A stretch of 63,716 nt of DNA from an uncultured Methanosarcinales archaeon. Lineage in GTDB: Archaea > Halobacteriota > Methanosarcinia > Methanotrichales > Methanotrichaceae. Shown here piece by piece: positions 10,521 to 32,700 of the stretch (positions are counted from its first letter, which is position 1; each line of letters starts with the position of its first letter). The translations under genes and the position numbers were made by a program. Under the pieces are notes generated by a model. The model saw only the letters and a program-made list of their open reading frames with translations, was not told the DNA's origin and searched no databases. Where the stretch lies: assembly GCA_903871465.1 (NCBI GenBank), contig CAIQHB010000022.1:1-63716 (forward strand), given 5' to 3'.

Positions 10521-12127
10521 GCGGAGTCGAGAGAGAGCCTGTAACCATTGCCAGGAGCCGCCAGACAGTCGAAGGAATGGTGACGGGCATTCCCAAAAAA
10601 ACCCGGGATATCAGAAAAAAGCACGTGGTCGTCAAGGACTCCTGCGAGATCGAACAGAAGATCGAGGCCAATGACCGCAGCATCCCGGGCATTCTGACCA
10701 ACCGCGGCTGCGCCTACGCCGGCTCCAAGGGAGTTGTCTTCGGTCCGATCAAAGATATCCTGCACATCACCCACGGCCCCATCGGCTGCGCCTACTTCAC
10801 CTGGGGAACGCGCCGCAATCTCATGAAGCCGGAAGAGGGCAGGGACTGCTACTCGGGCTACTGTCTGAGCACGGATGTCAAGGAGACCGACATCGTCTTT
10901 GGTGCAGAGAAAAAGCTGGCGGCAGCCATCCGAGAGGCTTACGCCATATTCAAGCCGCAATGCATCGCAATCTTCTGCACCTGCCCCATCGGCCTCATCG
11001 GCGACGATATCGAATCGGTCTGCAAGAAGGCGGAGGAGGATCTCCAAATCAAGGTCATCCCCGTGCGTTGCGAAGGATACAGGGGCGTCAGCCAATCAGC
11101 GGGCCACCACATCGCCTCCAATGCCCTGATGGAGCATATCGTGGGCACAGAGGAGCTGGAGAACCCCGGGCCCTTCGACGTGAACGTCTTCGGAGAGTAC
11201 AACATCGGAGGAGACTACTGGGTGGTTAAGGATCTTCTGGAGAGAGTGGGCTACCGTGTCGTCAGCCCCTTCACAGGCGACGCCTCCTTCCACGATATCG
11301 CCAAAGCCCACCGGGCCAAGCTGAATATCCTGCTCTGCCACCGCTCCATCAACTACACCAATCGCATGATGGAGGAGAAATACGGCATACCCTGGCTGAA
11401 GGTCAACTACCTGGGCGTGGCGGATACTGTCAAAACCCTGCGGGATATGGCGGCGTTCTTCGACGATCCGGATCTGACCAAAAGAACGGAAGCCGTAATC
11501 GCCGATGAGATGGCAAGGGTCCAGCCAACAATCGATATGTATAGGAAAAGGTTGTCGGGAAAGAGGGTCATGATCCTGGTCGGCGGCTCGCGTGCTCACC
11601 ACGTCAGGAATATGTTCGAGACCCTTGGGATGGACGTGGTCGTGGCCGGCTACGAGTTCGCTCACCGGGATGACTTCGAAGGTAGATCTGTCCTCTCCAG
11701 CATTGTCCAAACCGGACGCTCCAAGGTTCTGGAAGATATCCATTACGAGCGCGACCCGAATGTCGTCTCGCCTTATGATAATGCAGCGCTCCAGAAGAAG
11801 AAGGAGAAGATTCCGAGGCTCATGGATTACGAGGGCCTGCTGCCCCATATGAAAGACGGCCAGATCATGATCGACGACTACAGCCATCACGAGTGCGAGC
11901 GGTTGGTAAAGGATATGGGAATTGACCTCTTCTGCTCGGGAATAAAAGACAAGTACGTCTTCCAGAAGATGCACATCCCCTCCCGCCAGATGCACTCTTA
12001 TGACTACAGCGGCCCTTACACCGGCTTTGAGGGTTTCGTTCAGTTCGCCAAAGATATCGACATGTCCGTGAACAGTCCCACCTGGAAATTCATAACTCCG
12101 CCCTGGAGGCAGATCATCAATGCTTGA
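10517..12127 (+). CDS. nifD: Nitrogenase MoFe protein alpha chain
   Basis: A 536-residue catalytic subunit that holds FeMo-co and half of the P-cluster. P-cluster cysteines lie in RGCAYAGSKG, HGPIGCAYF and FCTCPIGLIGDD. FeMo-co contacts are present: the Cys in LLCHRSINY, the Gln/His pair in GVSQSAGHHIA, and the distal His in RQMHSYDYSGPY, where bacterial Mo enzymes usually have Trp after HS rather than Tyr. The C-terminal end carries the usual FAKDIDM segment. The next gene, nifK, overlaps by 8 bp. Together with the downstream modABC genes this supports a Mo-dependent enzyme. Confidence 0.97.
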   Translation: MSGVEREPVTIARSRQTVEGMVTGIPKKTRDIRKKHVVVKDSCEIEQKIEANDRSIPGILTNRGCAYAGSKGVVFGPIKDILHITHGPIGCAYFTWGTRRNLMKPEEGRDCYSGYCLSTDVKETDIVFGAEKKLAAAIREAYAIFKPQCIAIFCTCPIGLIGDDIESVCKKAEEDLQIKVIPVRCEGYRGVSQSAGHHIASNALMEHIVGTEELENPGPFDVNVFGEYNIGGDYWVVKDLLERVGYRVVSPFTGDASFHDIAKAHRAKLNILLCHRSINYTNRMMEEKYGIPWLKVNYLGVADTVKTLRDMAAFFDDPDLTKRTEAVIADEMARVQPTIDMYRKRLSGKRVMILVGGSRAHHVRNMFETLGMDVVVAGYEFAHRDDFEGRSVLSSIVQTGRSKVLEDIHYERDPNVVSPYDNAALQKKKEKIPRLMDYEGLLPHMKDGQIMIDDYSHHECERLVKDMGIDLFCSGIKDKYVFQKMHIPSRQMHSYDYSGPYTGFEGFVQFAKDIDMSVNSPTWKFITPPWRQIINA

Positions 12128-13478
12128 TTATACACCGAAGGAGATGGCAAAAAGAGAAATCCTGGTCATAAACCCGGCCAAGATCTGCCAGCCCATCGGC
12201 GCCATCCTGGCCTATAAAGGCATCCACAACTGCATGCCGATCACCCATGGCTCGCAGGGGTGCAGCTCGTACCTGCGCATGGTGCTGGCCCGCCACTACC
12301 GCGAGCCGACGCTCGCTGCGACCTCCTCCTTTACTGAAGACTCCGTGGTCTTCGGAGGCAGAAACAACCTCAAGGAGGCGGTCAACAATGTAGTGAACAT
12401 CTACCATCCCGATGTTCTGGCCATCAATACGACCTGCTCCTCTGAGACCATAGGGGACGATGTCTCCTCATTCATGGAAGAGATCAAAGGAGAGGAGTTC
12501 TTCGACCCCAATGTGCGCGTCGTTATTGCCAGCACCCCCAGCTATGTGGGGTCGCATATCACCGGCTACGACAATGCCGTCAAAGCCATCGCCCAGAGCT
12601 TTGCCCGCAAGGGCTCGCCCAACGGGAAATTGAATGTAATACCCGGCTTCGTTGACCCGGGAGACATTCGTGAGATTAAGAGGATCTTAGGCATCATGGG
12701 CGTCGGCTATATCATATTCCCTGACACCACTGACGTCTTCGACGCGCCTCTGACACCCGAATCGGGGGGTGTCTATCCGCCTGGCGGAACTACCATCCCG
12801 GATCTGGTGGACGCAGGCAACTCCCGCGCCACTATAGCTCTGGGAAGGACCGCCGGAGCCTCGGGTGCTGTGGTCTTGAAAGGCAAGTTCCAGATCCCAG
12901 CCGTCATCGGCCCCATGCCCATAGGCATCCGCAATACCGATGCCTTCGTTATGAACGTCTCGAGCCTCATGAATGTGCCAATTCCGAGAGAGATAGAGTA
13001 CGAGAGAGGCAGACTGGTGGACATGATGACCGATGCCCATCCGCACTTCCACGGCAAGAGCGTGGCCATCTTCGGGGATCCGGACACGGTTATCGGCCTG
13101 GTCGGCCTGGCCGTGGAAATGGGCATGAATCCTGTCTATGCCCTGACCGGCACTCCGGACAAGAAATTCGCAGACGAGATTCATAATGTGGCACCCGACT
13201 GCGAAGCGATGGTGGGAGACACCTTCCTTCTGCACCAGAAGATCAAGAACAATCCGGTGGATATGCTCATCGGCAATACCTATGGTAAACTGATAGCAAG
13301 AGCCGAGGATATTCCTCTTGTGCGGGTGGGATTCCCCATCACCGATCGGGCCAATTTGCATTACTTCCCCATCATCGGCTATGCCGGAACTGCTCGCCTG
13401 GTGGAGATGATAGGCAACGCCTTCCTGGAAAGAAGAGACAGAGATTCGGACGACGCACATTTCGAGATGATCCTGTAG
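12120..13478 (+). CDS. nifK: Nitrogenase MoFe protein beta chain
   Basis: A 452-residue subunit of the alpha2-beta2 dinitrogenase. The three P-cluster cysteines are visible in KICQPIGAIL, HGSQGCSSYLR and NTTCSSETIGDD. It is shorter than the ~520-residue Azotobacter protein because the N-terminal extension is missing, which is normal in methanogens. The start overlaps the nifD stop, consistent with equal production of the two chains. The end of the protein (DRDSDDAHFEMIL) is followed 12 bp later by nifE. Confidence 0.97.
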   Translation: MLDYTPKEMAKREILVINPAKICQPIGAILAYKGIHNCMPITHGSQGCSSYLRMVLARHYREPTLAATSSFTEDSVVFGGRNNLKEAVNNVVNIYHPDVLAINTTCSSETIGDDVSSFMEEIKGEEFFDPNVRVVIASTPSYVGSHITGYDNAVKAIAQSFARKGSPNGKLNVIPGFVDPGDIREIKRILGIMGVGYIIFPDTTDVFDAPLTPESGGVYPPGGTTIPDLVDAGNSRATIALGRTAGASGAVVLKGKFQIPAVIGPMPIGIRNTDAFVMNVSSLMNVPIPREIEYERGRLVDMMTDAHPHFHGKSVAIFGDPDTVIGLVGLAVEMGMNPVYALTGTPDKKFADEIHNVAPDCEAMVGDTFLLHQKIKNNPVDMLIGNTYGKLIARAEDIPLVRVGFPITDRANLHYFPIIGYAGTARLVEMIGNAFLERRDRDSDDAHFEMIL

Positions 13479-13490
13479 GAAACAACAGCT

Positions 13491-14918
13491 ATGAGCGTGA
13501 TCAAGACCTTTGAAGGCAGGGAGGGACATATAGCCCGGAAAGCGGGCTCGGATCCATTGTCCCTTTCGTGCAGCAACGAGAGCCTGGCCGGCGCCGTCAG
13601 CCAGAGAGCATGCGTCTACTCGGGAGCCAGAGTTGTCCTCAATCCCCTTACGGACGCTCTTCATCTGGTGCACGGCCCCATAGGCTGTGCCAGCTACACC
13701 TGGGATATCAGAGGCAGCTCTACCTCCGGACCGACCCTCTACAAGAGCAGCTTCTCCACGGACATGAAGGAGCTGGATGTGATCTATGGCGGCGAGAAGA
13801 AGCTGGCTACAGCCATTAAAGAGCTGGCCCTTAAATACCGGCCCCCTGCCATCTTTGTCTATTCCACCTGCATCGTGGGCATCATCGGAGACGACATCAG
13901 GTCCGTCTGCGGCCAGGCGGCAGCAGAGATCGGAATACCTGTAATTCCTGTCAAGTCCGAGGGCTTCAAAGGAAATAAGAACGAGGGCTACAAGGCCGCC
14001 TGCAATGCCCTCTTCGAGCTGATCGGAAGAAGAGACTACGAGCCCAGGAGTCCGTACACCATAAACCTGCTGGGTGAGTATAACGTCGCTGGAGACCTGT
14101 GGGCCATCAAACCCCTCTTAGAGGAGATAGGCCTGGAGGTGATCGCAACGTTCACTGGAGACGGCCGGGTGGAAGAGATAGAACGGGCGAATCATGCATG
14201 CCTGAATCTGGTCCAGTGCAGCGGCTCCATGACCTACTTAGCCAAGAAGATGGAGGAGAAGTTCGGCATTCCCTATAGACGCATCAGCTTCTTCGGACTG
14301 GGAGATGTGAGTAATGCCCTGCGGCTTGCAGCTGAACACTTTGGCGAGCCATCTCTGATGGACAGGGCAGAGGAGATAATCGAGCGCGAGACTGCCCGGG
14401 TCATGCCCAGAATCGCCTGCCACCGGGCTCGCGTGCAGGGAAAGAAGGCGGCCATCTATATGGGCGGGGCTGCCAAAGCCGTCTCGCTGGTGAAGGGCTT
14501 CGAGGAGCTGGGAATGGAGGTGGTTATCATCGGCACCCAAACCGGCGACTCCGAGGATTACCGGAAGATAAGCTGCATCGTCAAGGACGGGACCGTGATA
14601 GTGGATGATGCCAATCCACTGGAGCTCAGAGAACTGCTGCATAAGCAGAAAGCCGACATCCTGGTGGCCGGCGTCAAGGAGAGGTTCCTGGCCTATAAGC
14701 TCGGAATCGCTTTTTGTGACTTCAATCATGACCGGACGACGAGCTTTGAGGGCTATGATGGAATGGTCAACTTTGCCAGAGAAATAGATGTGAGCCTCAA
14801 CAGTCCCGTCTGGAAGCTGCCCAAGCTTAGAGCGAGCACGCTTGGAGCTGGAGCCTCCTGCAATCAGAGAAAGTTGATCGCTATGCGTGAATGCCGAGGA
14901 GTTGCCATAAATGTCTGA
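13491..14918 (+). CDS. nifE: FeMo-cofactor scaffold subunit NifE
   Basis: A 475-residue homologue of NifD that, with NifN, receives the NifB-made precursor and completes FeMo-co before handing it to NifDK. Cluster-binding cysteines are in QRACVYSGARVV, HGPIGCASYTWD and YSTCIVGIIGDDI. The DFNHDRTTSFEGYDGM end region is NifE-type: the NifD His-containing RQMHSYDYSGPY is absent, as expected for a scaffold rather than an enzyme. AGGAAAC precedes the ATG. The 3' end overlaps nifN by 8 bp. Confidence 0.95.
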   Translation: MSVIKTFEGREGHIARKAGSDPLSLSCSNESLAGAVSQRACVYSGARVVLNPLTDALHLVHGPIGCASYTWDIRGSSTSGPTLYKSSFSTDMKELDVIYGGEKKLATAIKELALKYRPPAIFVYSTCIVGIIGDDIRSVCGQAAAEIGIPVIPVKSEGFKGNKNEGYKAACNALFELIGRRDYEPRSPYTINLLGEYNVAGDLWAIKPLLEEIGLEVIATFTGDGRVEEIERANHACLNLVQCSGSMTYLAKKMEEKFGIPYRRISFFGLGDVSNALRLAAEHFGEPSLMDRAEEIIERETARVMPRIACHRARVQGKKAAIYMGGAAKAVSLVKGFEELGMEVVIIGTQTGDSEDYRKISCIVKDGTVIVDDANPLELRELLHKQKADILVAGVKERFLAYKLGIAFCDFNHDRTTSFEGYDGMVNFAREIDVSLNSPVWKLPKLRASTLGAGASCNQRKLIAMRECRGVAINV

Positions 14919-16224
14919 AAGCTATTCCACAGTAAACCCCTGCAACATGTGCATGCCCATGGGCACAGTCCTGGCCTTCAAAGGCATCGAGGGCTGCATG
15001 CCTCTCTTTCACGGCTCACAGGGGTGCGCCACCTATATGCGCCTGTACCTTGCGCATCACTTTCGGGAGCCGGTAGATATCGGATCCTCGGCCCTGAGTG
15101 AGAAGGGGACCGTCTACGGTGGAGCCGCCAATTTAAAAAAGGGCATCAAGAACCTCATCGCTGGCTACAGACCAAAGGCTATCGGCATAGCAACGACCTG
15201 TCTTGCCGAGACCATCGGAGACGATATAGTACAGATCATCAGGGAGTTCCGGATAGAGGAGCCTCTGGCCTCCCGTTTGCCCATTATCCCCGTCTCCACT
15301 CCCAGTTACTCCGGCTCACATGAGGAAGGTTATGCCAGGGCCCTTCTGGCTCTGGTGGAGGCTCTGGCCAAAAAGGGCGAGCCCAACAACAAAGTGAACC
15401 TGGTGATAGGATCTGTGCTTTCACCAGCGGATGTGCGCTATCTCAAGGATATGTTGAACGACTGGGGCTGCAGTGACGAGTTCATCCTCTTTCCTGACAT
15501 ATCAGAGACCCTTGACGCGCCGCTGGTCGAGGAGATGCCCACTATCCCCGAAGGCGGCACGCCCCTGCGGGACGTCGCAGACACTGCCAACAGCCGCGAG
15601 ACCCTGACGATCGGCGGAAGGTTTCAGAAGGACTTTGCGGGCGCCTTTCTGGAGGAGACCTACGGCGTAAAAAGCAGCCTTCTGCCTTTGCCAATAGGTC
15701 TCGAGCATACCGACCTCTTTGTGTCCAGGATGGAAGAGCTGACCGGAAGACGCCTTCCCGGGAAATATGAAGCCGAGAGGGGCAGGCTGCTTGATACCCT
15801 GGCGGATGTACATAACTATCTGGACGGTGTCCGGGTGGCGGTATTCGGAGATTCGGATATTGTCGTCGAATTGACCCGTCTTCTCACGGAGGTTGGTGCT
15901 GTGCCGGCGGTGGTCGCAACCGGCTACAGCAGCCCCGGCTTTAAGGCTGAGATCAGGGCGAATTCGGCGGACCCGATCATCCTCTGCGGCGCAGACTTCA
16001 CCGATATCCATGACCAGGTTTGCAAAGGAAGAGTCGATCTGCTGCTGGGCACCTCCAATGGAAAGCAGATCTCGCAAAAGGAGAAGATACCTCTGGTTCG
16101 GGTGGGCCTTCCTAATCACGATCGAGTTGGGGCAAACAGACAATTGATTCTGGGATACGAGGGTGCAGGGAGGCTGCTGGATGCCTTGACCAATGCCCTG
16201 CTGGAAGAGAGGTCGAGGAAGTGA
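14911..16224 (+). CDS. nifN: FeMo-cofactor scaffold subunit NifN
   Basis: A 437-residue NifK-like partner of NifE. It begins close to the cluster motif NPCNMCMPMGTVLAFKGIEG and has HGSQGCATYMR and ATTCLAETIGDDI. It closes the nif operon; nifB, nifV and nifX are not in the window, so cofactor synthesis depends on genes elsewhere. About 220 bp separates it from modA. Overlap with nifE implies coupled translation. Confidence 0.94.
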   Translation: MSESYSTVNPCNMCMPMGTVLAFKGIEGCMPLFHGSQGCATYMRLYLAHHFREPVDIGSSALSEKGTVYGGAANLKKGIKNLIAGYRPKAIGIATTCLAETIGDDIVQIIREFRIEEPLASRLPIIPVSTPSYSGSHEEGYARALLALVEALAKKGEPNNKVNLVIGSVLSPADVRYLKDMLNDWGCSDEFILFPDISETLDAPLVEEMPTIPEGGTPLRDVADTANSRETLTIGGRFQKDFAGAFLEETYGVKSSLLPLPIGLEHTDLFVSRMEELTGRRLPGKYEAERGRLLDTLADVHNYLDGVRVAVFGDSDIVVELTRLLTEVGAVPAVVATGYSSPGFKAEIRANSADPIILCGADFTDIHDQVCKGRVDLLLGTSNGKQISQKEKIPLVRVGLPNHDRVGANRQLILGYEGAGRLLDALTNALLEERSRK

Positions 16225-16442: not shown

Positions 16443-17282
16443 TTGATAGAAAAGAGAATAATTGGAGTTATGTTTGCGGTGTTGCTTTTGGCGGCATCAG
16501 CAGGCTATGCACAGGAGACCAAAGAGCTCACCGTCTTCACAGCGGCCTCGCTTACGGGAGCATTTGGCGAGATGGGACAGATGTATAAGAATGAAACCAA
16601 TATCAGCGTGGCATTCAACTTCGACGGCTCGCAGGCGCTTCGCACACAAATGGAAAACGGAGCTTATGCCGATGTCTTCGCTTCTGCCAATCAGAAGCAG
16701 ATGAACGCAGTTAAAAATGACGGGCTGATGAACAACAGCAGCATAGTTATATTCACAAAAAACAAGCTTTCGCTCATCGTTCCCAAGGGTAACCTCGCCA
16801 AGATCATCAACCTCTCGGATCTGGCCAAGCCGGGGCTCAAGATCGTCATGGGAACGAAGGATGTGCCAGTAGGCGACTATGCCCTGCAAATCTTAAATAA
16901 GCTGGGCAACGACTCCGCCTATGGTCCCGACTACAAAACAAAGGTGCTGGCCAATGTCATCTCTCAAGAGACCAATGTCAATTACGTGGTAACAAAGGTT
17001 GCCCTGGGTGAAGCGGATGTCGGTTTTGCCTACGTCTCCGATATCACTAAGAATTTGACGAGCAAGGTGGATAAGATTGACATACCGGATGAATACAATG
17101 TCATCGCCCAGTATCCCATGGGAATATTGCTGGAATCCAAATATCCGCTCCAGAGTCGGGAGTTCATGTCGCTGGTAATGTCGGATAAAGGTAAGGCCGT
17201 CCTGGAGAAATACGGCTTCGCTCCCGTTGCAGGAGTGGCTGCCAAAACAGCTGGAACGGCCATGGCTGCAGCTGCAGCCTGA
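16443..17282 (+). CDS. modA: Molybdate ABC transporter substrate-binding protein
   Basis: A 279-residue exported protein starting with TTG; GGTGAT lies ~7 nt upstream and a signal peptide follows (EKRIIGVMFAVLLLAASAGYA). The mature part opens with KELTVFTAASLTGAFGEM, the ModA signature whose Ser residues bind the oxyanion, and continues with FNFDGSQALRTQ. It captures molybdate (or tungstate) outside the cell for ModBC. The Ala-rich tail (AAKTAGTAMAAAAA) is unusual but low-complexity. Downstream of nif, it most likely supplies Mo for FeMo-co. Confidence 0.93.
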   Translation: MIEKRIIGVMFAVLLLAASAGYAQETKELTVFTAASLTGAFGEMGQMYKNETNISVAFNFDGSQALRTQMENGAYADVFASANQKQMNAVKNDGLMNNSSIVIFTKNKLSLIVPKGNLAKIINLSDLAKPGLKIVMGTKDVPVGDYALQILNKLGNDSAYGPDYKTKVLANVISQETNVNYVVTKVALGEADVGFAYVSDITKNLTSKVDKIDIPDEYNVIAQYPMGILLESKYPLQSREFMSLVMSDKGKAVLEKYGFAPVAGVAAKTAGTAMAAAAA

Positions 17283-17301
17283 CCGTAAGCTCTTTCTTTG
17301 A

Positions 17302-17326
17302 GGCCGGGAATGAACCGATCCCGGCC
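17302..17326 (+). terminator. Stem-loop between modA and modB
   Basis: GGCCGGGA (17302-17309) pairs with TCCCGGCC (17319-17326) across a 9-nt loop, 20 bp after the modA stop. No T-run follows, so it is more likely an mRNA-stabilising or partial-attenuation hairpin, which would give more binding protein than permease, than a full terminator. Confidence 0.5.
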
Positions 17327-17417
17327 CCAAAACCTTTGTCGGAATGATGAAGGACAGGGACTGCGTTGCTGTGACAAACTGCTGAGCATAGGATGAACTA
17401 ATCGCAAGAGTGAACAA

Positions 17418-18314
17418 ATGGCTTCCAATCAGGCTGATATCGGCCCATATGGCGAAAGAAGTCTGGCAGAGCTGGTAAATCAGGAGCAGGAAATCATCGG
17501 CATCCCTTCCAGAACCAGAGAAGTGGCTCTGAAGGCAGGTCTGGCCTTTATGTTGGTACTGGCCATGGCCTTCATAGCTCTGCCTGTGGTTGCCCTCTTC
17601 CTCAGGAGCCCTCTGGACACCACCCTCAGATCTCTGCACGATCCGGTGGTAATAGATGCTCTCAGGCTGAGTCTCACGACATCCACCATAACCACCATAA
17701 CTGTTGTAATAATGGGAACGCCCATAGCCTATGTCAGCGCTCGCTTTCAATATTTTGGCAAAGAGCTGGCCGACTCCCTGATTGATCTGCCTGTTATCAT
17801 GCCTCCTGCCGTGGCTGGCATCGCTCTGCTGGTGGCCTTTGGCAGAATGGGAATTGTGGGTCATTATCTGAACGGAATGGGAATAAGCATAGCTTTTACC
17901 ACTCTGGCGGTGATAATCGCTCAGGTCTTCGTCTCCTCTCCGTTTTACATTCGCCAGGCCAGAACCAGCTTCGAGGATGTGGATCTGGCCTTTGAGAATG
18001 CCGCTCGCACCTTAGGCGCTTCCCGGGTCTACACCTTCTTTCACGTCATCATACCCATAGCTATGAACGGCCTTATCTCCGGGGCCATCATGGCTTTTGC
18101 GCGCTCCTTAGGAGAATTCGGAGCGACCATTATGTTTGCCGGAAACTTTCAGGGCCGAACTCAGACCATGCCCCTGGCCATTTATACCGCTATGCAGGGA
18201 GATCTGGACGTATCGCTATGCCTGGCGATAATCCTGGTCGCGTTCTCATTTATAGTCATATTCCTGGTGAAGACATTGACTCGTCGGCGGGTGCACAAGA
18301 ATGCTGGAAATTGA
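17418..18314 (+). CDS. modB: Molybdate ABC transporter permease
   Basis: A 298-residue inner-membrane permease with about six transmembrane segments after a soluble N-terminal stretch of ~40 residues. The cytoplasmic coupling loop that contacts the ATPase is visible as ENAARTLGASRVYTFFHVII, and GEFGATIMFAGN is typical of ModB/CysT permeases. The extended N terminus (MASNQADIGPYGERS) is longer than usual; an internal start is possible but no better ribosome-binding site is seen. Its 3' end overlaps modC by 14 bp. Confidence 0.92.
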   Translation: MASNQADIGPYGERSLAELVNQEQEIIGIPSRTREVALKAGLAFMLVLAMAFIALPVVALFLRSPLDTTLRSLHDPVVIDALRLSLTTSTITTITVVIMGTPIAYVSARFQYFGKELADSLIDLPVIMPPAVAGIALLVAFGRMGIVGHYLNGMGISIAFTTLAVIIAQVFVSSPFYIRQARTSFEDVDLAFENAARTLGASRVYTFFHVIIPIAMNGLISGAIMAFARSLGEFGATIMFAGNFQGRTQTMPLAIYTAMQGDLDVSLCLAIILVAFSFIVIFLVKTLTRRRVHKNAGN

Positions 18315-19050
18315 CATCAGAAAAAAGCTGCGAGACTACAGCCTGGAGGTGAAGCTGAGTGTGGCCAGGGGCGAGATCCTCATGCTGGTGGGAGACAACG
18401 GCTGTGGAAAGACCACTCTGCTCAATATAGTGGCGGGTCTGCAAGACGCCGATGACGGAAGGATCGCTCTGGACGGCAGACCGATCTACGATTCAGCTCT
18501 GAAGACGAACATCCCTGCAGAGGCCCGCAATATCGGATATGTCTTTCAAAGCTACGCTCTCTTTCCTCATATGAGCGTCTACGATAATGTGGCCTTTGGT
18601 CTGCGCACCCGCTCTCACTCGAAGAACGAGATCGGTCTCCTGGTGAAGGATTATCTTGAAGCCGCCGGACTCTGGGAGATCAGGAAAGCCAAAGCCGTCA
18701 ATGTCTCCGGCGGACAGAAGCAGCGGATAGCACTGGCCCGGGCGCTCATCATCGAGCCCGATCTCCTTTTGCTGGATGAGCCACTTTCTGCTTTAGATGT
18801 CCGCAGGCAAGCTCAGATGAGAAAAGAGCTACGGGAGACGATTCATGCCTGCAATGTCCCCTGCATCATAGTGACCCATGACCTGAGGGATGTGGCCTGC
18901 ATCGGAGACCGGGCTTGCCTTCTGGAGAAGGGAAAGATTGTGCTCACGGGCGGGGCGGAAGATGTCATGAGCTGGGGGGCAGGTTTGCCTCTGGTGGGGA
19001 GCAAGAGCCAGGTTGCACCAAACGATTTTGGAGAAGCAGGAGCCGCCTGA
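18301..19050 (+). CDS. modC: Molybdate ABC transporter ATP-binding protein
   Basis: A 249-residue ABC ATPase: Walker A GDNGCGKTTLL, Q-loop in YVFQSYALFPHMSVYDNV, signature VSGGQKQRIALARAL, Walker B LLLLDEPLSALD and the switch His in VTHDLRD. It powers ModB. It lacks the C-terminal molybdate-sensing TOBE domain found in many ~350-residue ModC proteins, so feedback by bound molybdate is not expected here. The overlap with modB indicates one transcript. The following 140 bp to the convergent VOC gene shows no clear terminator. Confidence 0.92.
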   Translation: MLEIDIRKKLRDYSLEVKLSVARGEILMLVGDNGCGKTTLLNIVAGLQDADDGRIALDGRPIYDSALKTNIPAEARNIGYVFQSYALFPHMSVYDNVAFGLRTRSHSKNEIGLLVKDYLEAAGLWEIRKAKAVNVSGGQKQRIALARALIIEPDLLLLDEPLSALDVRRQAQMRKELRETIHACNVPCIIVTHDLRDVACIGDRACLLEKGKIVLTGGAEDVMSWGAGLPLVGSKSQVAPNDFGEAGAA

Positions 19051-19193: not shown

Positions 19194-19667
19194 TTATCGT
19201 CCTTCGTACGCTTGCTTTAAGAGTTCTATGTCAATTTTTTTCATTTGAAGCATTGCCTTCATAACTCTCTTCGATTTCGCAGGATCAGGGTCACTCAACA
19301 TCACACCTAAGATTGATGGAATGATCTGCCATGATACTCCAAATTTGTCTTTCAGCCAGCCGCATATTTGTTTTTCTCCTTCCTCGGAGAGCTTTTCCCA
19401 AAAATTATCCACTTCTTCCTGGGTCTCGCAGCTCACAAAAAGGGACATGGCTGAAGAGAACGTGAATTGTGGGCCGCCGTTTAGGGCCATGAATTCTTGT
19501 CCATCGAGATAGAATATCCCGGACATTACCGTTCCCTTTGGACCAGGACCTTCCTCTCCATAAAGAGTAGTACTAAAAATCATCGAATTCTTGAAAATCG
19601 AGATATAGAAATTCATTGCATCTTCAGCTTTGCCATCGAACCACAAGAAAGGGGTGATTTTTTGCAT
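19194..19667 (-). CDS. VOC-superfamily PhnB-like protein
   Basis: A 157-residue glyoxalase/bleomycin-resistance (VOC) fold protein of the PhnB group, once named 3-demethylubiquinone methyltransferase-like. Diagnostic pieces are [19 protein letters not shown] at the start, [14 protein letters not shown], and the [12 protein letters not shown] segment. Members are often of unknown function and usually dimeric. A TATA-like TTTATC region and a strong GGAGG precede the ATG on the minus strand. It converges on modC and has no operon partner. Confidence 0.88.
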
Positions 19668-20056
19668 GCAGCCTTCCTCCTTAATTGATATAAATTGCAG
19701 CGATAAATTTTTTGATCCTATTCTTTCATCTTTCTATTTCAACCAATCTAAACTGGGTGCCATGCGGCGACGAACCCGGGCGACCTATGCAGATTGGATT
19801 TCTTTTTCAGACTTGACTTATGATAGAAAGATCTTCTCTCTTTGCCCTGCATCGTGAACAACATCCTTTGTGAACACAGATGATCCCCCCACATTGGTGG
19901 CACATCCATCGAGTATGTTCGTGCCATAGAAACATTCATTCTTCTTGGTTAAATAATAGAATCCAGAAATCCTTATATATGAATAAATGGATTACGCTCT
20001 TTGTTGAATTGCATTGTCGAATTACTCTGTTGAATCAAGAAGTTATGTGGTAGGCT
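19668..20056. promoter_or_regulatory. Divergent promoter region between VOC gene and ArsR operon
   Basis: About 390 bp without a gene. It holds the VOC promoter and GGAGG site on the minus strand (within 19668-19720) and, for the plus-strand regulator operon, a TATA-like CCTTATATAT at 19971-19980, about 75 bp before the first start. The central part contains only short non-conserved frames. Confidence 0.5.
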
Positions 20057-20515
20057 GTGCTGATGCTGGATAGGGAACTGCCTGTGATCTCCGGCAAAAT
20101 ATTGCCCGGAGAAAAGAAAGAATCCTGCCAGGACAACCTTTGCTGTGAAGCAGAAAAGACCCTGATCAGGCTTTATGGAGATCGCGGCATTGCTCGAGAG
20201 CGATGTCTCCTGGTGTGCAATCAGATAAAAAGGATCGATGAAGAGGAAACAGACCGCGAGATAAAGGTCTTCAAAGCAGTGGCAGATGCAACCCGCCTCA
20301 GGATTCTCAAACTTCTGGCAGGAGGAGAGCTAGGCATCTGTGAGATAATGCTGGCCCTCAAAAAACCGCAGTCCTCCATATCACATAATTTATCCATACT
20401 CGAGGATGCGGGCCTGGTAAAAGAGAGAAAACAGGGAAAATGGTGTAGTTACAGCATCACGGATGAGGCTGTAATGGATATGATCAACCTGGCCAGGCAA
20501 TTGAAGAGAAAGTGA
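20057..20515 (+). CDS. ArsR-family winged-helix regulator with Cys-rich N-terminal extension
   Basis: A 152-residue protein. Residues ~65-150 are an ArsR/SmtB winged helix (VFKAVADATRLRILKLL, recognition helix PQSSISHNLSILEDAGLV, wing KERKQGKWCSYSI). In front lies a 60-residue extension with five Cys (24, 29, 30, 50, 54) that could bind a metal or Fe-S cluster or act as a thiol switch; this is inference. The start may be GTG at 20057 or ATG at 20063. It is the first gene of an operon leading to an HTH-Fe-S protein and a DsrEFH-like trio, so it probably controls them. Confidence 0.85.
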   Translation: MLMLDRELPVISGKILPGEKKESCQDNLCCEAEKTLIRLYGDRGIARERCLLVCNQIKRIDEEETDREIKVFKAVADATRLRILKLLAGGELGICEIMLALKKPQSSISHNLSILEDAGLVKERKQGKWCSYSITDEAVMDMINLARQLKRK

Positions 20516-20526
20516 TGGATTGATTT

Positions 20527-21339
20527 ATGGATCGGGTGGATAAGATGGTTGGAGGACAGGCCGATGTAAAGCTCGTGAGCAACGCCATGGCCAACGCCAC
20601 GAGAAGAAAGATAATGACCATGCTGCTCGAAGGCAACAGGACGATGGAGGAGATCGCAAAATCCGTTCCCTCCATGCTCGACTACCACCTGCAAATGCTG
20701 CAGCAGGCAGGCTTGATCGAGATCAAGGACGGGCTCGTGGTTCTAACCGATTTTGGAAAGAACTTCATGGAGACCAAGACCGTGAAGCCGGCTGAGGTCA
20801 AAACGGATCTTGCAGGCACAAGGTCCCTGGAAGTCGTCGAGCTGCGCCAGCTCTTGCCCTGCATAGCAGACAGCACCAAGTTCAGAATAATTGCCCGGTT
20901 TGAGCCTGCGCTTGAAGGAGCCTTGAAACTCCTGGAACCCTTGTTCCCGCGGGCCAGATACTCGGAGAGGATTGGGGCCCTCATCATCCAGAAGGGCAAT
21001 ATCCTCATCACAATCTATTCCACAGGCAATGTTACTATGACTATGATCAGGAGCGAGATCGAGGCCCGTGAGACTCTGGATGATTTGAAGAGGACCATCA
21101 ACGAGGCCATAGTCAAAGGTGTGACCCCGGTTCCCAGAGAGAAGATCAGGGTAGACCATGCCGAGATCTACCAATACCTTCCCAAGACCGATTGCCGGAT
21201 CTGTGGAGAGCAGAGCTGCTACACTTTCGCCATAAAGCTGGTTGGAAGGGAGACTACACTGGACAAATGCACACCGCTGCTCGAGGCCAAGTACACGACC
21301 AATCTGGAACACATCAGGGCGTTGCTCGAATACCTCTGA
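20527..21339 (+). CDS. Winged-helix protein with C-terminal 4Fe-4S domain (putative redox-sensing regulator)
   Basis: A 270-residue protein with three parts. Residues 12-85 are an ArsR-like winged helix (NAMANATRRKIMTMLLEG, then LDYHLQMLQQAGLIEIKDG). Residues ~100-200 form an alpha/beta domain I do not recognise. Residues 221-250 carry a CX2CX4CX16C motif (Cys223, 226, 231, 248; TDCRICGEQSCYTFA), the pattern of the Fe-S domain PF04060 found in acetyl-CoA synthase/CODH corrinoid subunits. A DNA-binding domain plus a 4Fe-4S domain suggests a redox- or Fe-S-sensing transcription factor. It starts 12 bp after the ArsR gene and precedes the DsrE-like genes by 15 bp. Confidence 0.8.
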   Translation: MDRVDKMVGGQADVKLVSNAMANATRRKIMTMLLEGNRTMEEIAKSVPSMLDYHLQMLQQAGLIEIKDGLVVLTDFGKNFMETKTVKPAEVKTDLAGTRSLEVVELRQLLPCIADSTKFRIIARFEPALEGALKLLEPLFPRARYSERIGALIIQKGNILITIYSTGNVTMTMIRSEIEARETLDDLKRTINEAIVKGVTPVPREKIRVDHAEIYQYLPKTDCRICGEQSCYTFAIKLVGRETTLDKCTPLLEAKYTTNLEHIRALLEYL

Positions 21340-21354
21340 AGGAGAGGGATCTTT

Positions 21355-21738
21355 ATGACACCAACTGCCATGAAGACGTTGACTATCATTCTCACGGACG
21401 GGCCCTATATCTCGGAGTATGCTGAGATGGCCTACAAGATCGCATCGGAGGCGCTCAAAGTCTCTCAGGTGAATATATTTCTCTACCTGGATGCAGTGCA
21501 TATAGCAAAAGTCGGCCAGAAGCCCTCTCTTTTTGGAAATGCAGGTCAGCTATTTCAGGAGCTGGCGGAAAGAGGGGCAAAGGTCAGAGCCTGCGCCAGG
21601 TGTGCCGCAGCCCGAGGCTACCAGGCAGAGGAGGATGGTATCTGCCCGGATTATCACCAGGGGATAAAGATCACAAGCCTTTATGATCTGGCCGAGATGC
21701 TGAAGAATAGCGACAGGGTAATTGCTCTATCGAGATGA
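21355..21738 (+). CDS. DsrE/TusD-like sulfurtransferase-family protein
   Basis: A 127-residue DsrE-fold protein with the strand-helix start KTLTIILTDGPYISEYAEMAYKIA and the LFLDAV-like IFLYLDAVHIAK region. A Cys-containing loop (VRACARCAAARG) sits where DsrE/TusD carries its persulfide Cys. GGAGAGG lies upstream of the ATG. It is the first of three DsrE-superfamily genes in order E, F, H, as in the heterohexameric sulfur-relay complexes DsrEFH and TusBCD. In a methanogen the likely job is sulfur trafficking for tRNA thiolation or cofactor synthesis; this is inferred from the family. Confidence 0.75.
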   Translation: MTPTAMKTLTIILTDGPYISEYAEMAYKIASEALKVSQVNIFLYLDAVHIAKVGQKPSLFGNAGQLFQELAERGAKVRACARCAAARGYQAEEDGICPDYHQGIKITSLYDLAEMLKNSDRVIALSR

Positions 21739-21769
21739 GATCGATGGCGTCGGGATCAATCCGCTTATG

Positions 21770-22108
21770 AGATCGGTCTTCTATCTACTAGACTCTGCCC
21801 CATACGGCAGCGAGAAGGCCTATGGAATGCTCAATGCGGCGGCTGTGAGCCTCGATATGGAAGTAACCCTGGGGCTCTATGCAGATGGCGTCTTCCTTGC
21901 CCTTGCCGGTCAGGAGAGCAGGCTTCTTGGAGTTCCTAATAATTCGGATATCGTTTATGCCTATCCAGAGATAAGAGTCATTGCCCATGAGCCCTCTCTC
22001 GCAGAAAGGGGGCTCTTGAGCCAAAGCCTGGTGGAGAGAATAGAACTGATGGATGAGGAGAAGTTCCAGGAAGAGATTCTTTCATCGGATTGCATCATAT
22101 TATTATGA
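21770..22108 (+). CDS. DsrF/TusC-like protein
   Basis: A DsrE-superfamily protein of 112 residues from ATG 21770 (MRSVFYLLDSAPYGSEKAY), which gives the canonical short N-terminal strand and the APYGS motif of DsrF/TusC. A frame extension from a TTG at 21722 overlaps the preceding gene by 17 bp and could be the real start through coupling. It lacks a Cys in the DsrE active-site position, as DsrF members usually do, so it is probably a structural subunit of the complex. Confidence 0.72.
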   Translation, partial: RSVFYLLDSAPYGSEKAYGMLNAAAVSLDMEVTLGLYADGVFLALAGQESRLLGVPNNSDIVYAYPEIRVIAHEPSLAERGLLSQSLVERIELMDEEKFQEEILSSDCIILL

Positions 22109-22127
22109 GGATGAAGTGAGTGATAGA

Positions 22128-22475
22128 ATGACTGTTGGTATGACGGATATCAAGCATATTTTCCTCTTGACCAAAACGCCTCAGAGCGAACGCGCCAGGC
22201 TCTGCCTGCAACTGGCAAAACAGTCGAAGAATGCCGTCCTCTACCTGGCAGGAGATGGCGTCTATCACCTACTGGCAGGGGTTGTCGGATCCTGTGATGC
22301 CCCGGCCCTGGCGGCTGCCCTGTCAGCTCTGCCTGGGGATCGAATCATAGCTAGTAAGGAAGACCTGGAGGCTAGAGGTGTGCAGGCAGAATATAAGGCA
22401 ACTGTCCCTGATGATTTTTACGGGCGGCTTGTGGATGACATGATGCAGGATGGCAGCCGGATTTATACTTTCTGA
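22128..22475 (+). CDS. DsrH/TusB-like protein
   Basis: A 115-residue protein from ATG 22128 (MTVGMTDIKHIFLLTKTPQS). It has the ILHLL-like IFLLTK strand, the VLYLAGDGVYHLLAG segment and the DRIIASKEDLEARG end of DsrH/TusB. The Cys normally present in TusB is not in its usual place, although one Cys lies in GSCDAPALA. The longer frame from 22053 overlaps the previous gene and was rejected as start. It completes the E-F-H trio and ends the operon. Confidence 0.7.
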   Translation: MTVGMTDIKHIFLLTKTPQSERARLCLQLAKQSKNAVLYLAGDGVYHLLAGVVGSCDAPALAAALSALPGDRIIASKEDLEARGVQAEYKATVPDDFYGRLVDDMMQDGSRIYTF

Positions 22476-22548: not shown

Positions 22549-25272
22549 TTACGGGCGGGTTGCGATGATAAATCCAACATCTCCTTTCCTCGTGGCCTTC
22601 TCTTCATATCTATCGATGATTTCCCATATCGTTCCGTCATCGATTGCATCTCTGAGCTTTTGCTTACCTTGCTCAATTTCACGAGCATCCATTTCTTTAA
22701 ATGCAGGGATTCCGCCCCGTATTTCTGGATCTAAATAGCGGTCGGGATTATGCTGTCCGATTCTAAGGGCGGCATCAGTCTCGGTCGGTTCCAGGGTCAT
22801 GTATTCAGATCTTACATTAGTGAATCCAATTTCGGTAAGCCAAGACTTATATTTTTCCTCTTTTAAGCATCTGTTCCAGTATCTATCTTTGAGTGATGGG
22901 AAAAACTCAACCTGCCACAGTGAATCGTGCTGTTCTTCAAATTCAGTATCTGCAAATACAACGCCTCCTCCTCTAAGGATTCTAAAAATTTCCTTAAAAA
23001 GAAGTCTCTGATCATCTCCGGTGAAGTAATGCAAGGTGGATATCAGCCAAACCGCGTCGCAGCATTTATAATCCAGGCCTGTTTCTAATGCGTCCCTTTC
23101 AATCCATTCCACTTCACTTGATTTTCCCCTCGCTACATCTAGCATATATTTACAGCCATCAAGCCCGATGACATGATGAAAATCGTTAATAAATGGAATC
23201 GTATAATTTCCAGTACCGCATCCGATATCTAAACCTACCTTATTAGAACTTGGATGAATATTTTGTCTCAATTTTTCGAGAATGCCCTTACTGGCTTTTC
23301 TTGTCAAATCATATCTTCCCGCAAACGCTTCAGCTTCTTTATCACCTTTAATCATGAACCTATGACTTATAAAATCTTTGACCGTTTTGAGCGAATCATC
23401 TTTTAGCATATCTTTAAAATTATCTTTCAGATCCGAACATTTCGGATCAACCCATTCTACCTTTCCTTTTCCTCCCCTTTCTTTGTATTCATAACTCGTG
23501 ATTATTTCGCCGCTCTTATCAAACCCAATTGCACAGTCAACCATCTGTCCGGGCTTTAATTGTTTACTACAAAGAACAAATAGCGGGATAGCAAAAATCC
23601 TGTGATCAAAGTCCAGATTCTCCAGCTCTTGGGTTTCGTTCCGCGTGGCTTTAGGCCTAATAAGTATCCTAGCTATCTCTAGATCATCGTCGCCTGGATT
23701 TTGGTCTTTTTCCTTTATTTCATATTTGGGCCACATTATTGGATCCGGATGCCAATGAGTTTTCATAATTGCATCATAGACCGGCTTTGAGAATCTAAGA
23801 CACTTATCAGACTGATCTGACTTTGATTTCAATTTCATTAGTCTGGATGCATATTGTTTCCTGAGGTACTTATTGAACCTGGGGCTACCCAATGAGGAAC
23901 GGGGATAATAGTCAGTCGCATAAATACAGCTATATCTATCCAATAAGTCATTAAAATGCTTAATCCATTCGTCAGATTCTTCCCCCCAGGCGCGAAGTTT
24001 GTTTTGAAGATCTTGAAGCGGTGGTTGAATCATATTTATGCTATGCTTCAAATGCTCTGGATCCTTTATATCTGATATTGAAACATTACGACCGAGACTC
24101 TTGAGCAATTCTCCAACCTCGGCCTTCATCTGACCATCAATGATCTCTTCAATTGAGGGCTCATCTGTTCTATCGTACCCAGCCGTACCGAAGTGGTAAT
24201 TTCTCACGGTAAATCGACATTCAGGGAGTTCTTTGCCATGTGCTCTCTCTGTCTCATATAGTTGAACTTCAGTGAATGGTGCTTCCTGCTTGCTTCCAAG
24301 GGTATCTCCACCGAGAATGTACATCCCATGTGCCTGACCTTGTTTCTGTGCCAGATCTCTTTCGTGGCAACTATGTGTATGGTGTCTATGGCCGTGAAAT
24401 ACTATGTCAAAACAGCAATTCCTAAGAGAATTTTTTACTTCACCAATGTTAATTATAGCATCAAACTTCTCTATGTCATCTGTGGGTACGCTCGACAGAT
24501 TATGATGCATTACAGCTACCTTGAGACGGTTTTTGCTTTTGTTTTTCTCATTAAATTCCTTCAATACTTTTTCCATTTGGCGGAGATCCTTTGGAGATAT
24601 ATATCCAGGATCTATCCGGGTTCCCTCTTTAAGAGACTCCAATGCGCTATTAAAATCGTCTCCTGATTCGTTTTTTGGTTGCGGCCTGCCAGAGTTATAG
24701 GGTTCAGAAATGTATCTGTAAATCAGGTCAATTTTTGGATCCTTCACTCCACCTAACGAAGTGGAATTTAGCAAATATACAAAAAGGTTGCAATCATCTC
24801 CGAAATCACAATACACTGGCAAATCTTCAGATAAATATTTTGCAGAGAGCACACCTTCATCGGAGAGTCGTTGAGCCATTTGTGCATATCGCTCTATTTT
24901 TTCTTCGTTGGAACCTTTGCTCCAATCTAAATCATGGTTTCCTGGAACCATTAGAATATAGGGGTACTCCTTGTTTCTGCGCCAATAAGGTTTCCTTTTC
25001 TCGAGTATCTTTTTAATATCCCGGATGTAATCTTCCGCTTTTCTCATATCGTCCGGAGAAGCATCTGATGTAAGATCTCCTGATATTATTATAAGATCCG
25101 GCAAGTTATCCGGGTGATCTCTGAGATGTCTTAAGTACAAATCAAGATTTCGAGGTTTTTCGTCCTTGGAAACAATATTTTGGTATCTATTAATCGCTTC
25201 ATAATGATCTTTCCCAATATGGATATCGCTAAGATGGTGTATTAAGAGCGTTGATCCTGTTTTAGTTTTCAT
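22549..25272 (-). CDS. Calcineurin-like metallophosphoesterase fused to a SAM-dependent methyltransferase
   Basis: A 907-residue fusion from ATG 25272 (a TTG five codons upstream is possible). Residues ~8-370 are a complete two-metal phosphoesterase: DIHIGKD, SGDLTSD, VPGNHDLDW, VMHHN and FHGHRHHTH. Residues ~380-640 are a helical and then mixed region I cannot assign. Residues ~650-830 are a class I methyltransferase with motif I VGLDIGCGTGNYTIPF, the acidic end of strand 2 in VIGLDG, and a late RILRGGGVVFADTEF. The phosphoesterase half resembles long calcineurin-type enzymes found near prokaryotic defence genes. The joint activity is unknown; possibilities include removing and adding modifications on nucleic acid or a nucleotide signal. 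It is monocistronic and convergent with the DsrEFH operon. No signal peptide or membrane segment. Confidence 0.8.
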   Translation of the reverse strand: MKTKTGSTLLIHHLSDIHIGKDHYEAINRYQNIVSKDEKPRNLDLYLRHLRDHPDNLPDLIIISGDLTSDASPDDMRKAEDYIRDIKKILEKRKPYWRRNKEYPYILMVPGNHDLDWSKGSNEEKIERYAQMAQRLSDEGVLSAKYLSEDLPVYCDFGDDCNLFVYLLNSTSLGGVKDPKIDLIYRYISEPYNSGRPQPKNESGDDFNSALESLKEGTRIDPGYISPKDLRQMEKVLKEFNEKNKSKNRLKVAVMHHNLSSVPTDDIEKFDAIINIGEVKNSLRNCCFDIVFHGHRHHTHSCHERDLAQKQGQAHGMYILGGDTLGSKQEAPFTEVQLYETERAHGKELPECRFTVRNYHFGTAGYDRTDEPSIEEIIDGQMKAEVGELLKSLGRNVSISDIKDPEHLKHSINMIQPPLQDLQNKLRAWGEESDEWIKHFNDLLDRYSCIYATDYYPRSSLGSPRFNKYLRKQYASRLMKLKSKSDQSDKCLRFSKPVYDAIMKTHWHPDPIMWPKYEIKEKDQNPGDDDLEIARILIRPKATRNETQELENLDFDHRIFAIPLFVLCSKQLKPGQMVDCAIGFDKSGEIITSYEYKERGGKGKVEWVDPKCSDLKDNFKDMLKDDSLKTVKDFISHRFMIKGDKEAEAFAGRYDLTRKASKGILEKLRQNIHPSSNKVGLDIGCGTGNYTIPFINDFHHVIGLDGCKYMLDVARGKSSEVEWIERDALETGLDYKCCDAVWLISTLHYFTGDDQRLLFKEIFRILRGGGVVFADTEFEEQHDSLWQVEFFPSLKDRYWNRCLKEEKYKSWLTEIGFTNVRSEYMTLEPTETDAALRIGQHNPDRYLDPEIRGGIPAFKEMDAREIEQGKQKLRDAIDDGTIWEIIDRYEEKATRKGDVGFIIATRP

Positions 25273-25537
25273 GCCGATTTCTTCCAAATATAATCACTTT
25301 CCTGACATAGTACCTCTGAGCGATTTTTTGGCTTTTTCCTCATAAATATTTACCGGTCGTGTCTATGGCTTATCTGCAAGATATTAATGAGCTTAAGATA
25401 TTGTTTCTCTGACATCGAGGACAGTTTCTCGTTTAGTCAAATGATCCATCCTTCGGTTCAAAAAGATTAAAAAAATAAAAAAATTAGATTTAACAGGATC
25501 GCAGCATTGCAGTCTTGTTCCGCCCTAAGCTTTAGCT

Positions 25538-29796: not shown

Positions 29797-32700
29797 TTAT
29801 CCTACCATTACCTCGACGAAATGTTCATTGTGATCATCAACGAGGAGAACTGCTCCATCGCTTTTCACCTGGCCGTCAACCGCCACGCTAATTTCCTCGC
29901 ATCCCGGCCCCGGCCGCGTAACTGTTATGTGGTAGAACGTCTCTCTATAGCGATAATGCAAGAGAAAAGACTTCCAATCTGCCGGAAGACAAGGGGTGAA
30001 GCGTAGCCTGTCAACATCTAGCCTCAGTCCGAGCAGCGATTCTATTATTAGGCGGTATATCCAGCCCGCAGCTCCCGTGTACCAAGTCCATCCGCCTCGC
30101 CCAACATGCGGCGGCATAGCATAGACATCGGCCGCCATGACGTATGGCTCGGTTCTGTAGATTGCCACCTGTTCCGGAGTTGAGCCGTGATTCACTGGAT
30201 TAATCATATCCAGCAGCTCCCAGGCCCGGAGGCTGTCGCCCATGGCGGCAAAAGCTATGGCCACCCAGACGGCTGCCTGAGTTTGCTGACCTCCATTCTC
30301 TCTCACTCCTGGGATGTAGCCTTTGATATAGCCAGGATCAGTGTCTGACTTATCGAAGGGCGGCTTCAGAACCTGTATCAGCGAAGCATCTCTATTGACC
30401 AGAAGGCGATCCACTTCCCCCATAGCCGTCTTCGATCTCTCCGGATCTCCTGCCCCGGATAGAACAGACCAGCTCTGTGAGATGGAATCGATCTGACATT
30501 CCGCGTTGGCAGCAGACCCCAGGGGCTCTCCGCTATCGAAATAGGCACGGAGATACCAGCGGCCATCCCACCCGTTCTCTCTGATAGACTGACGGAGACG
30601 GGCAGCCTCATTCTTGCAAATATCTGCGAAGTTTCTGTCAGTATTCATCAGAGCGATCTCTGAGAATTTTACCAGCACATGGTAGAGGAAGAAAGCCAAC
30701 CAAACGCTCTCGCCCAAGCCCTGATAACCTACCCGGTTCATGGAGTCATTCAAGTCGCCAGAGCCCATGAGCGGCAGGCCATGCTTTCCCAACTGCATGC
30801 TGCGCCTGATGGCTCGAATGCAGTGCTCATAAAGGGTTCCGGACTCTTCCGACTTTATGGGCAGATCGTAATTCGCTTCCTCCTCTGGTTTAAGAGGTCT
30901 GCCCTCAATGAAGTTAACGCGCTCATCCAGTACTACCTTGTCTCCAGTAGCTGTGACGTAGATATATACGGCCAGCGGCAACCAAAGTCGATCATCGGAG
31001 CTGTGCGTGCGCACGCCCCTTCCCGATGGCGGATGCCACCAATGCAAGACATCTCCCTCCCCGAATTGCTGGGCAGCACATCGTAGCAGGTGCTCGCGCA
31101 TGATACGAGGCTCGGTGTAGATCAGGGCCATCGAATCCTGCAACTGATCCCGGAAGCCAAAGGCTCCTCCTGACTGGTAGTATCCGCTACGCGCCCAAAT
31201 GCGGCAGGCCAGTGTCTGGTAGATGAGCCAACCATTGGTGAGTACATTCAAAGACATATCTGGAGTCTCTACGCGCACTGCGCCGAGGGTGCGGTTCCAG
31301 TAATTCCAGACGGCTTCAAGCGCAGAGTGTGCGGGACCTGACCCTCGAAAACGCTTGATCAGGTTTCGTGCATCATCCATGTTCCGTCCCATTCCAAGGG
31401 TGAAGACGATCTCTCTCTCTTCTCCTTCCGCCAGATCGATCTTGACCTGTTGGGCTAGGCACGGGTCCATGGCCGCACCTACCATATTGGAGAATCGCTC
31501 TCGGTTCATGGCGTCAGGTCTGGCCATACTTCCGTTTCGTCCCAGGAATTCGAGTCGATCACCGGTGAAGCTGACATGGTCCGCATTGACATCCAAAAAG
31601 ACCACCCTTCCAGGAAAATCCGTATTGTAAGGATTCCTGGCAAAGAGGGCTCCCGTCCTTGGATCGATCTCTGTGCTTATGTGCATTTCGGACTTTGTGC
31701 GCTTCTCTCCGAGAACCAGTTCGACAAAACCTGTAATAGATAGATGACGGGGACCAATTGATTCATTACGGACAACGAGCCTGCAAAACTTTACCGGTGC
31801 ATCTATTGCTACATATATCCAAAGCTCAGATGCAATCCCCAATTCTTTGTGCTCGAAGACGCTATAACCAAAGCCATGCCTGCAGGTGTAAGGCGTCTCT
31901 CCGCGTGCGGGCAGCACTGTGGGGGACCAGAACTGGCCTGTCTCCTCGTCACGAATGTACATAGCCTCGCCGCTGGAGTCGCTTACAGGATCGTTATACC
32001 AGGGGCTGAGACGGAACTGCTGTGAGTTCTCGCCCCATGTATAGGCTCCTCCGCATTCTGAGATCACCGTCCCAAAGTGCGGGTTTGCTATAACATTCGA
32101 CCAGGGAGCCGGAGTCTCCTGTCCTGGAGCGATCCTGATTATGTACTCTCGACCGTCCTTTGTGAATCCGCCCAGGCCATTGAAGAATATCAGATCATGA
32201 CCCGTAGACTTTGTCAGGTTATAATTCTCGACCCGGAATTCTTTTTTAGGATTTAGAATCGGGACCGTTACATATAGTCTATTTTTACGATCTAGCTGCT
32301 CCTCGAATGTTCCCCTGTCATCGGAGAAGACGGCATGAGCAGCGGCCTGTAAAAGGATTCCGGCCACTTCAGATATCTCATCACCGGGTATCACGAAGAC
32401 CTTCCCCAGCCAGTCCCTCGCTAGTGGATCTGTGCTTGATATCAGGTCCATGATGTCGTCCTGAAGCTGCTGCCGGTACCCTGTGCTGCCGCCGTTCCAG
32501 ATCACCAGATCTACTGCCAGACCCATGATATGCCAGTAGGCATGAGCCCTCATGAGTTGATGCGCCAAATCGATGTAAGATCGATCCTGAATCTTGAGAA
32601 GGACAATTGGGATGTCGCCCGAGATACCGTATGCCCATAAAGCCGACTGTCCGCCTTGATTGTTCAAGAGACTGCTCGTGGCTGCGCGCCAGTTTGAGCC

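Follow-up and report, generated by a model that had tools for sequence, protein, structure and literature searches.

The locus raises the question of why a methanogen should place a set of sulfur-relay-like genes behind two putative DNA-binding proteins, one of them bearing an Fe-S motif, and whether sulfur trafficking or some other thiol chemistry is under their control. Five genes are packed tightly in the same direction on the forward strand at 20057-22475 of the window (the whole stretch analyzed, 63,716 nucleotides), with intergenic gaps of 11, 15, 28, and 19 bp. The first (20057-20515) encodes an ArsR/SmtB-type metalloregulator of 152 aa (HTH_5, PF01022, 56.8 bits against a cut-off of 22; NF033788, 86 bits against a cut-off of 55); its ORF starts with GTG, and an ATG lies 6 bp further in. 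The second (20527-21339) encodes a protein of 270 aa, here called HTH-FeS, for which Pfam, PDB profiles, AF2, and Foldseek together point to an HTH domain, half of a TATA-binding protein (TBP), and a [4Fe-4S]-type domain. There follow a DsrE/TusD-like protein with an invariant CXXC (C80, C83; 21355-21738; PF02635, 71 bits), a DsrF/TusC-like protein without a conserved Cys (21767-22108; PF02635, 31 bits), and a DsrH/TusB-like protein with an invariant C26 (22128-22475, from an ATG; PF04077, 25.4 bits against a cut-off of 24.4). The mechanical call for the DsrF-like gene was a TTG at 21722, and the ATG at 21767 was chosen by homologues. Matches above the curated Pfam cut-offs are HTH_5 in both regulators, PF04060 (FeS) in gene 2, PF02635 in genes 3 and 4, and PF04077 in gene 5. 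ORFs and Pfam thus agree with the original prediction of a Cys-rich ArsR and a separate winged-helix Fe-S protein ahead of three DsrE-superfamily genes, and the E-F-H order that it proposed is borne out by the best NCBIfam ranks of genes 3-5 (TusD/DsrE, TusC/DsrF, and TusB/DsrH).

Directly upstream of the operon lie nitrogenase-type genes (NifK/NifN-like, 12120-16224) and then a ModABC molybdate/tungstate transporter (16443-19050); a 3-dmu-9_3-mt / PhnB-like protein is encoded on the reverse strand between modC and the operon (19194-19667). Also on the reverse strand are a 912-aa protein combining a calcineurin-like phosphoesterase with a SAM methyltransferase (22549-25287) and an ORF of 2942 aa (29797-38625).

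Literature searches on this operon found no published work, and 63 named loci were collected for comparison. Full-length HTH-FeS, at 49-82% identity, is present in 34 of 61 relatives (Methanotrichaceae and Methanosarcinaceae), one of these being a broken copy (G016). The dsr genes share its locus in 55 of 59 evaluable cases, almost always directly downstream and in E-F-H order; order or orientation deviates in a few (L042; L060, L061). Conservation of gene order, the check suggested for the original prediction, is seen across Methanothrix and Methanosarcina for HTH-FeS followed by dsrE-F-H. HTH-FeS and the dsrE-type gene are both present in 31 of the 61 genomes and both absent from 26, with 3 and 1 discordant (Fisher p 7e-13, which is illustrative, as the genomes are related and relatedness is uncorrected). 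One contig labelled Methanosuratincola (L048) carries a fused cassette whose HTH-FeS is 77% identical to the window protein, reflecting either transfer or mis-binning.

Sulfur relay or metalloid stress

Judged by sequence, genes 3-5 are divergent members of the DsrE, DsrF, and DsrH families in the right order, divergent because all of them miss the NCBIfam cut-offs for the TusB, TusC, and TusD equivalogs (36.8 bits against 89, 31.4 against 94, and 42.2 against 49). Against the A. vinosum structures, C80 of the DsrE-like protein falls on Cys78 of DsrE (2hy5_A) and C26 of the DsrH-like protein on Cys20 of DsrH (2hy5_C), the latter match being weak (E 0.027); the best PDB match of the DsrF-like protein is DsrF (2hy5_B, E 9e-6). 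These equivalents of Cys78 and Cys20 make it chemically possible that the DsrE-like and DsrH-like Cys bind persulfide or a metalloid. A DsrC/TusE acceptor was not found, there being no PF04358 in the own genome, with an E. coli control positive. Plain membership of these genes in a Tus/Dsr relay was rejected on the absence of DsrC/TusE and the missed equivalog cut-offs. A PDB match of P0003 to designed PPR proteins was set aside as repeat noise. Two TusA-family proteins are encoded elsewhere in the own genome, one of them beside another DsrE; a TusA-DsrE pair separate from the operon lies at G000:C62:15748-16357.

Many relatives encode a permease between a rhodanese and HTH-FeS, and TIGR00832 identifies it as ACR3 (~450 bits; cut-off, 283). 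Of the 26 genomes having both genes, 19 place acr3 no more than 5 kb from HTH-FeS, compared with ~0.8% per genome expected by chance, the 26 genomes being related to one another. Fused arsR-rhodanese-acr3-HTHFeS-dsrE-F-H loci are seen in L035, L037, L048, L055-057, L088, L091, and G004. The window itself has no acr3: the own genome carries arsR2-rhodanese-acr3 as a unit by itself on contig C80, so that acr3 is outside the operon's transcription unit here and inside it in many relatives. In G040, HTH-FeS is ~3 kb from acr3 and this dsrE type is missing, while in Methanosarcina an ArsP_1 permease occurs near an arsR beside the HTH-FeS locus (L068, L084). Many dsrEFH loci are without acr3 in the stretch compared, and most Methanosarcina loci have none nearby. 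The arsR2 proteins carry an ELCVC motif, the form that an As(III) sensor of this family should have. In the acr3 cassette, the active-site loop of the rhodanese (YSSDYSRSS) has no Cys; the protein gives no support for persulfide supply, and was rejected both as a sulfur donor and as an Acr2/Cdc25-type arsenate reductase. The rhodanese-fold proteins of these cassettes (L132 5048-6148; L037 3814-4869) start with a lipobox-like GCSCS and are probably envelope proteins. In a transcriptome study of Thioalkalivibrio, DsrE/F-like genes with no assigned role are reported to respond to arsenite (PMC6620896).

Because it recurs beside arsenic exporters across relatives, the operon probably senses or handles arsenic-like metalloids, and does not just route sulfur; the ACR3-family context is no proof that the ligand is arsenic. 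Our main reading, with a rough probability of 0.45, is that the five genes would make up a single operon serving metalloid stress (arsenite/antimonite-like) or a thiol stress close to it, with a classic ArsR and an HTH/half-TBP/4Fe-4S sensor. The original prediction of an Fe-S repressor of sulfur trafficking would seem to hold only in part, for its protein more than for its target: an Fe-S-domain regulator of the type proposed is likely, but the context is that of metalloid export (ACR3, ArsP_1) more than sulfur, and a genome without DsrC/TusE counts against sulfur trafficking.

It is possible, if unlikely, that the operon serves sulfur supply. HTH-FeS would then sense Fe-S or sulfide status and repress a DsrEFH relay feeding tRNA thiolation or Fe-S assembly, with the ACR3 linkage reflecting shared thiol stress only. 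The DsrEFH homology with its catalytic Cys retained, the TusA-family proteins and the DsrE beside one of them, and the seating of the Fe-S domain on an HTH protein would all suit such a system, whereas the missing acceptor, the failure of all three Dsr-like proteins to reach the Tus cut-offs, the G040 locus, where HTH-FeS keeps company with acr3 and not with this dsrE, and an ACR3 proximity far above chance argue against it.

Domains of the 270-aa protein

HTH-FeS consists of a winged helix (~10-82), a TBP-like repeat (~102-197), and a PF04060 FeS domain (218-250; 42.5 bits against a cut-off of 23). Its CX2CX4CX16C motif is real and spaced exactly as predicted (C223-X2-C226-X4-C231-X16-C248), and the assignment of this motif to the CODH/ACS corrinoid protein type is matched by profile hits to CFeSP gamma (2h9a; E 2e-8 with profile A1, 3e-11 with profile A2). 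Loss of these Cys among homologues would have counted against the prediction; instead they are invariant, together with C112, in 52 of 52 aligned homologues, an alignment that takes in HTH-less proteins only 25-40% identical over the core. A bound [4Fe-4S] cluster is predicted. The motif is, as had been claimed, borne on a DNA-binding-type protein (HTH_5), and homologues that have the winged helix conserve it strongly, R26, R27, K28, L51, D52, and H54 being invariant. A PF04060 protein at G000:C53, which weakly matches P0002, is related but ferredoxin-like and has no TBP-like part; it was rejected as a paralogue.

The middle domain, which the original prediction had missed, is well supported by profiles and models as half of a TBP. 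On the single 270-aa sequence, Pfam TBP scores 16.5 bits, below its cut-off of 22.9, while PDB profile searches match TBP 2z8u with the first profile (E 6e-4) and M. jannaschii TBP with a profile including distant HTH-less homologues (E 4e-6). The core, modeled by AF2 at pLDDT 86, shows the half-repeat topology b-a-b-b-b-b-a; every one of the top Foldseek hits of this model is a TBP, with the Fe-S part matching CFeSP. A weaker full-length model (pLDDT 75) matches TBP, then winged helices of ArsR proteins, and then CFeSP. The 270 residues hold a single repeat and not a two-repeat saddle, and two ordinary TBPs are encoded elsewhere in the own genome.

Elsewhere in the phylum, 22 genomes from other families have a match to the core that lacks the winged helix. 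An HTH-less homologue stands directly before dsrEFH in L108 and L095, the latter a Methanothrix bin with 6% contamination. In Archaeoglobus-like loci, HTH-less homologues adjoin ACR3 and ArsP_1 permeases (L116, in the order acr3-ArsP_1-FeS; L117, where ArsP_1 is divergent from the homologue), and in another family one adjoins thioredoxin-like, TauE, and universal stress genes. As HTH-less homologues too precede dsrEFH, the Fe-S module may not act as a regulator in every genome, and it can work without a DNA-binding domain of its own. A doubtful alternative would see the half-TBP/Fe-S module chiefly as the partner with which DsrEFH and the exporters exchange electrons or sulfur, an HTH having been added only in Methanosarcinia, so that an enzyme partner became autoregulatory. 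PF04060-type domains do serve RnfB and CFeSP. The five Cys kept by HTH-less homologues directly before dsrEFH, and the acr3, ArsP_1, and TauE genes beside others (L116, L117, L109), fit a transfer partner; however, the conservation of the winged helix with its six invariant residues argues that DNA binding is used, and the TBP fold, like the HTH, speaks for DNA.

ArsR and the promoter palindrome

The Cys of ArsR lie in an N-terminal extension (C24, C29, C30, and C50-X3-C54) and at C95 and C130, and are kept in 12-14 of 13-15 homologues, with the exception of C95 (7/15). At the ELCxC site the window protein has ELGIC, with one Cys only, while most homologues have ELCIG or ELCVC. Upstream, where the prediction had pointed to a TATA region at 19971-19980, there is indeed a conserved element: a candidate promoter/operator at 19961-19992 on the forward strand, ATCCAGAAATCCTTATATATGAATAAATGGAT, which forms an imperfect palindrome (AATCCA...TGGATT) across the archaeal TATA box. 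Its 24-bp core has 95% identity among 13 relatives' loci, against ~30% in the flanks, and the element is unique in the own genome with up to three mismatches allowed. The strong palindrome occurs in 13 of 13 loci with a window-type ArsR; the fused acr3 loci, which have HTH-FeS but not this ArsR, lack it. As the element accompanies window-type ArsR and is absent without it, ArsR is the likeliest binder of this putative operator, and the case for an Fe-S protein site was lowered.

It seems improbable that the protein bound to the TATA-box palindrome is HTH-FeS and not ArsR, although weaker, similarly shaped palindromes do occur upstream of HTH-FeS in L092 and L025/L098, all without window-type ArsR; a scan for the window element upstream of HTH-FeS elsewhere gave weak palindromes only, in Methanolobus/G040-type loci. 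The 13 loci with both window-type ArsR and the strong palindrome, and the fused loci with HTH-FeS and neither of these, weigh on the other side. A different inverted repeat, ATATCAA-N6-TTGATAT, is found ~90-230 bp upstream of Methanosarcina HTH-FeS (L069, L072-L075, L077, L078, L084, L085, L087). We regard as very unlikely a scheme in which HTH-FeS, dimerizing through its winged helix, would join two half-TBPs into a pseudo-TBP saddle that competes with or mimics TBP at TATA boxes, the [4Fe-4S] cluster being the switch of a TBP-derived, gene-specific regulator.

A proposed mechanism and known systems

If the five genes do form an operon for metalloid or related thiol stress, its ligand, DNA target, and direction of regulation can be suggested as follows. 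We infer that ArsR would bind the palindrome at 19961-19992 over the TATA box and block transcription, and, by analogy with its family, that a soft metal or metalloid caught by its Cys would release it. HTH-FeS would be a second, cluster-based sensor, its winged helix and half-TBP carrying the CODH/ACS-type [4Fe-4S] domain; if As(III), an oxidant, or a shortage of sulfide removed or damaged the cluster, the protein might bind DNA differently or change how it touches the transcription machinery. The DsrE-F-H proteins may form a hetero-complex in which C80/C83 of DsrE and C26 of DsrH carry persulfide or bind As(III), to be taken over by a thiol acceptor in place of DsrC/TusE. The matching exporter operon, arsR2-rhodanese-acr3, is on another contig of the own genome, the two halves being adjacent or fused in most relatives.

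The combination of a winged helix, a half-TBP, and a CODH/ACS-type Fe-S domain is an uncharacterized architecture in acetate-using methanogens, and its link to the export of metalloids and to thiol chemistry can readily be tested. If the half-TBP works on DNA, this would be a regulator made from a general transcription factor fold. Homologues exist in Methanosarcina, among them tandem HTH-FeS genes and dsrEFH in laboratory strains of Methanosarcina acetivorans (L141 4735-7940). Since genes are routinely deleted in this genus, both the sensing of arsenic-like stress and the role of DsrEFH in methanogens are directly testable.

Several known systems resemble parts of this operon. Both regulators share the winged helix of the ArsR/SmtB family (CadC, SqrR, HlyU; NF033788). 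ArsR passes the family cut-off, and has Cys-rich candidate metal(loid) sites and a palindrome over the core promoter, but falls below the cut-offs for the named equivalogs TsoR, BigR, and CmtR; HTH-FeS differs in its two extra domains, which no family model searched joins to a winged helix. With CODH/ACS corrinoid protein gamma and RnfB, HTH-FeS has the CX2CX4CX16C domain in common (the whole 33-residue PF04060 model is aligned), yet it lacks a corrinoid or Rnf partner and is fused to the winged helix and half-TBP. It has one repeat of the TBP fold, in single copy and not as a two-repeat saddle, and DNA contact by this repeat is putative. Genes 3-5 resemble DsrEFH/TusBCD in order, homology, and the retained equivalents of Cys78 and Cys20, and differ in their sub-cut-off equivalog scores, the extra CXXC Cys of the DsrE-like protein, a genome without DsrC/TusE, and linkage to ACR3/ArsP. 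As in ACR3 ars operons, arsR and acr3 share one transcription unit in many relatives; unlike those operons, the unit adds an HTH/half-TBP/FeS protein, dsrEFH, and a rhodanese-fold protein without the catalytic Cys.
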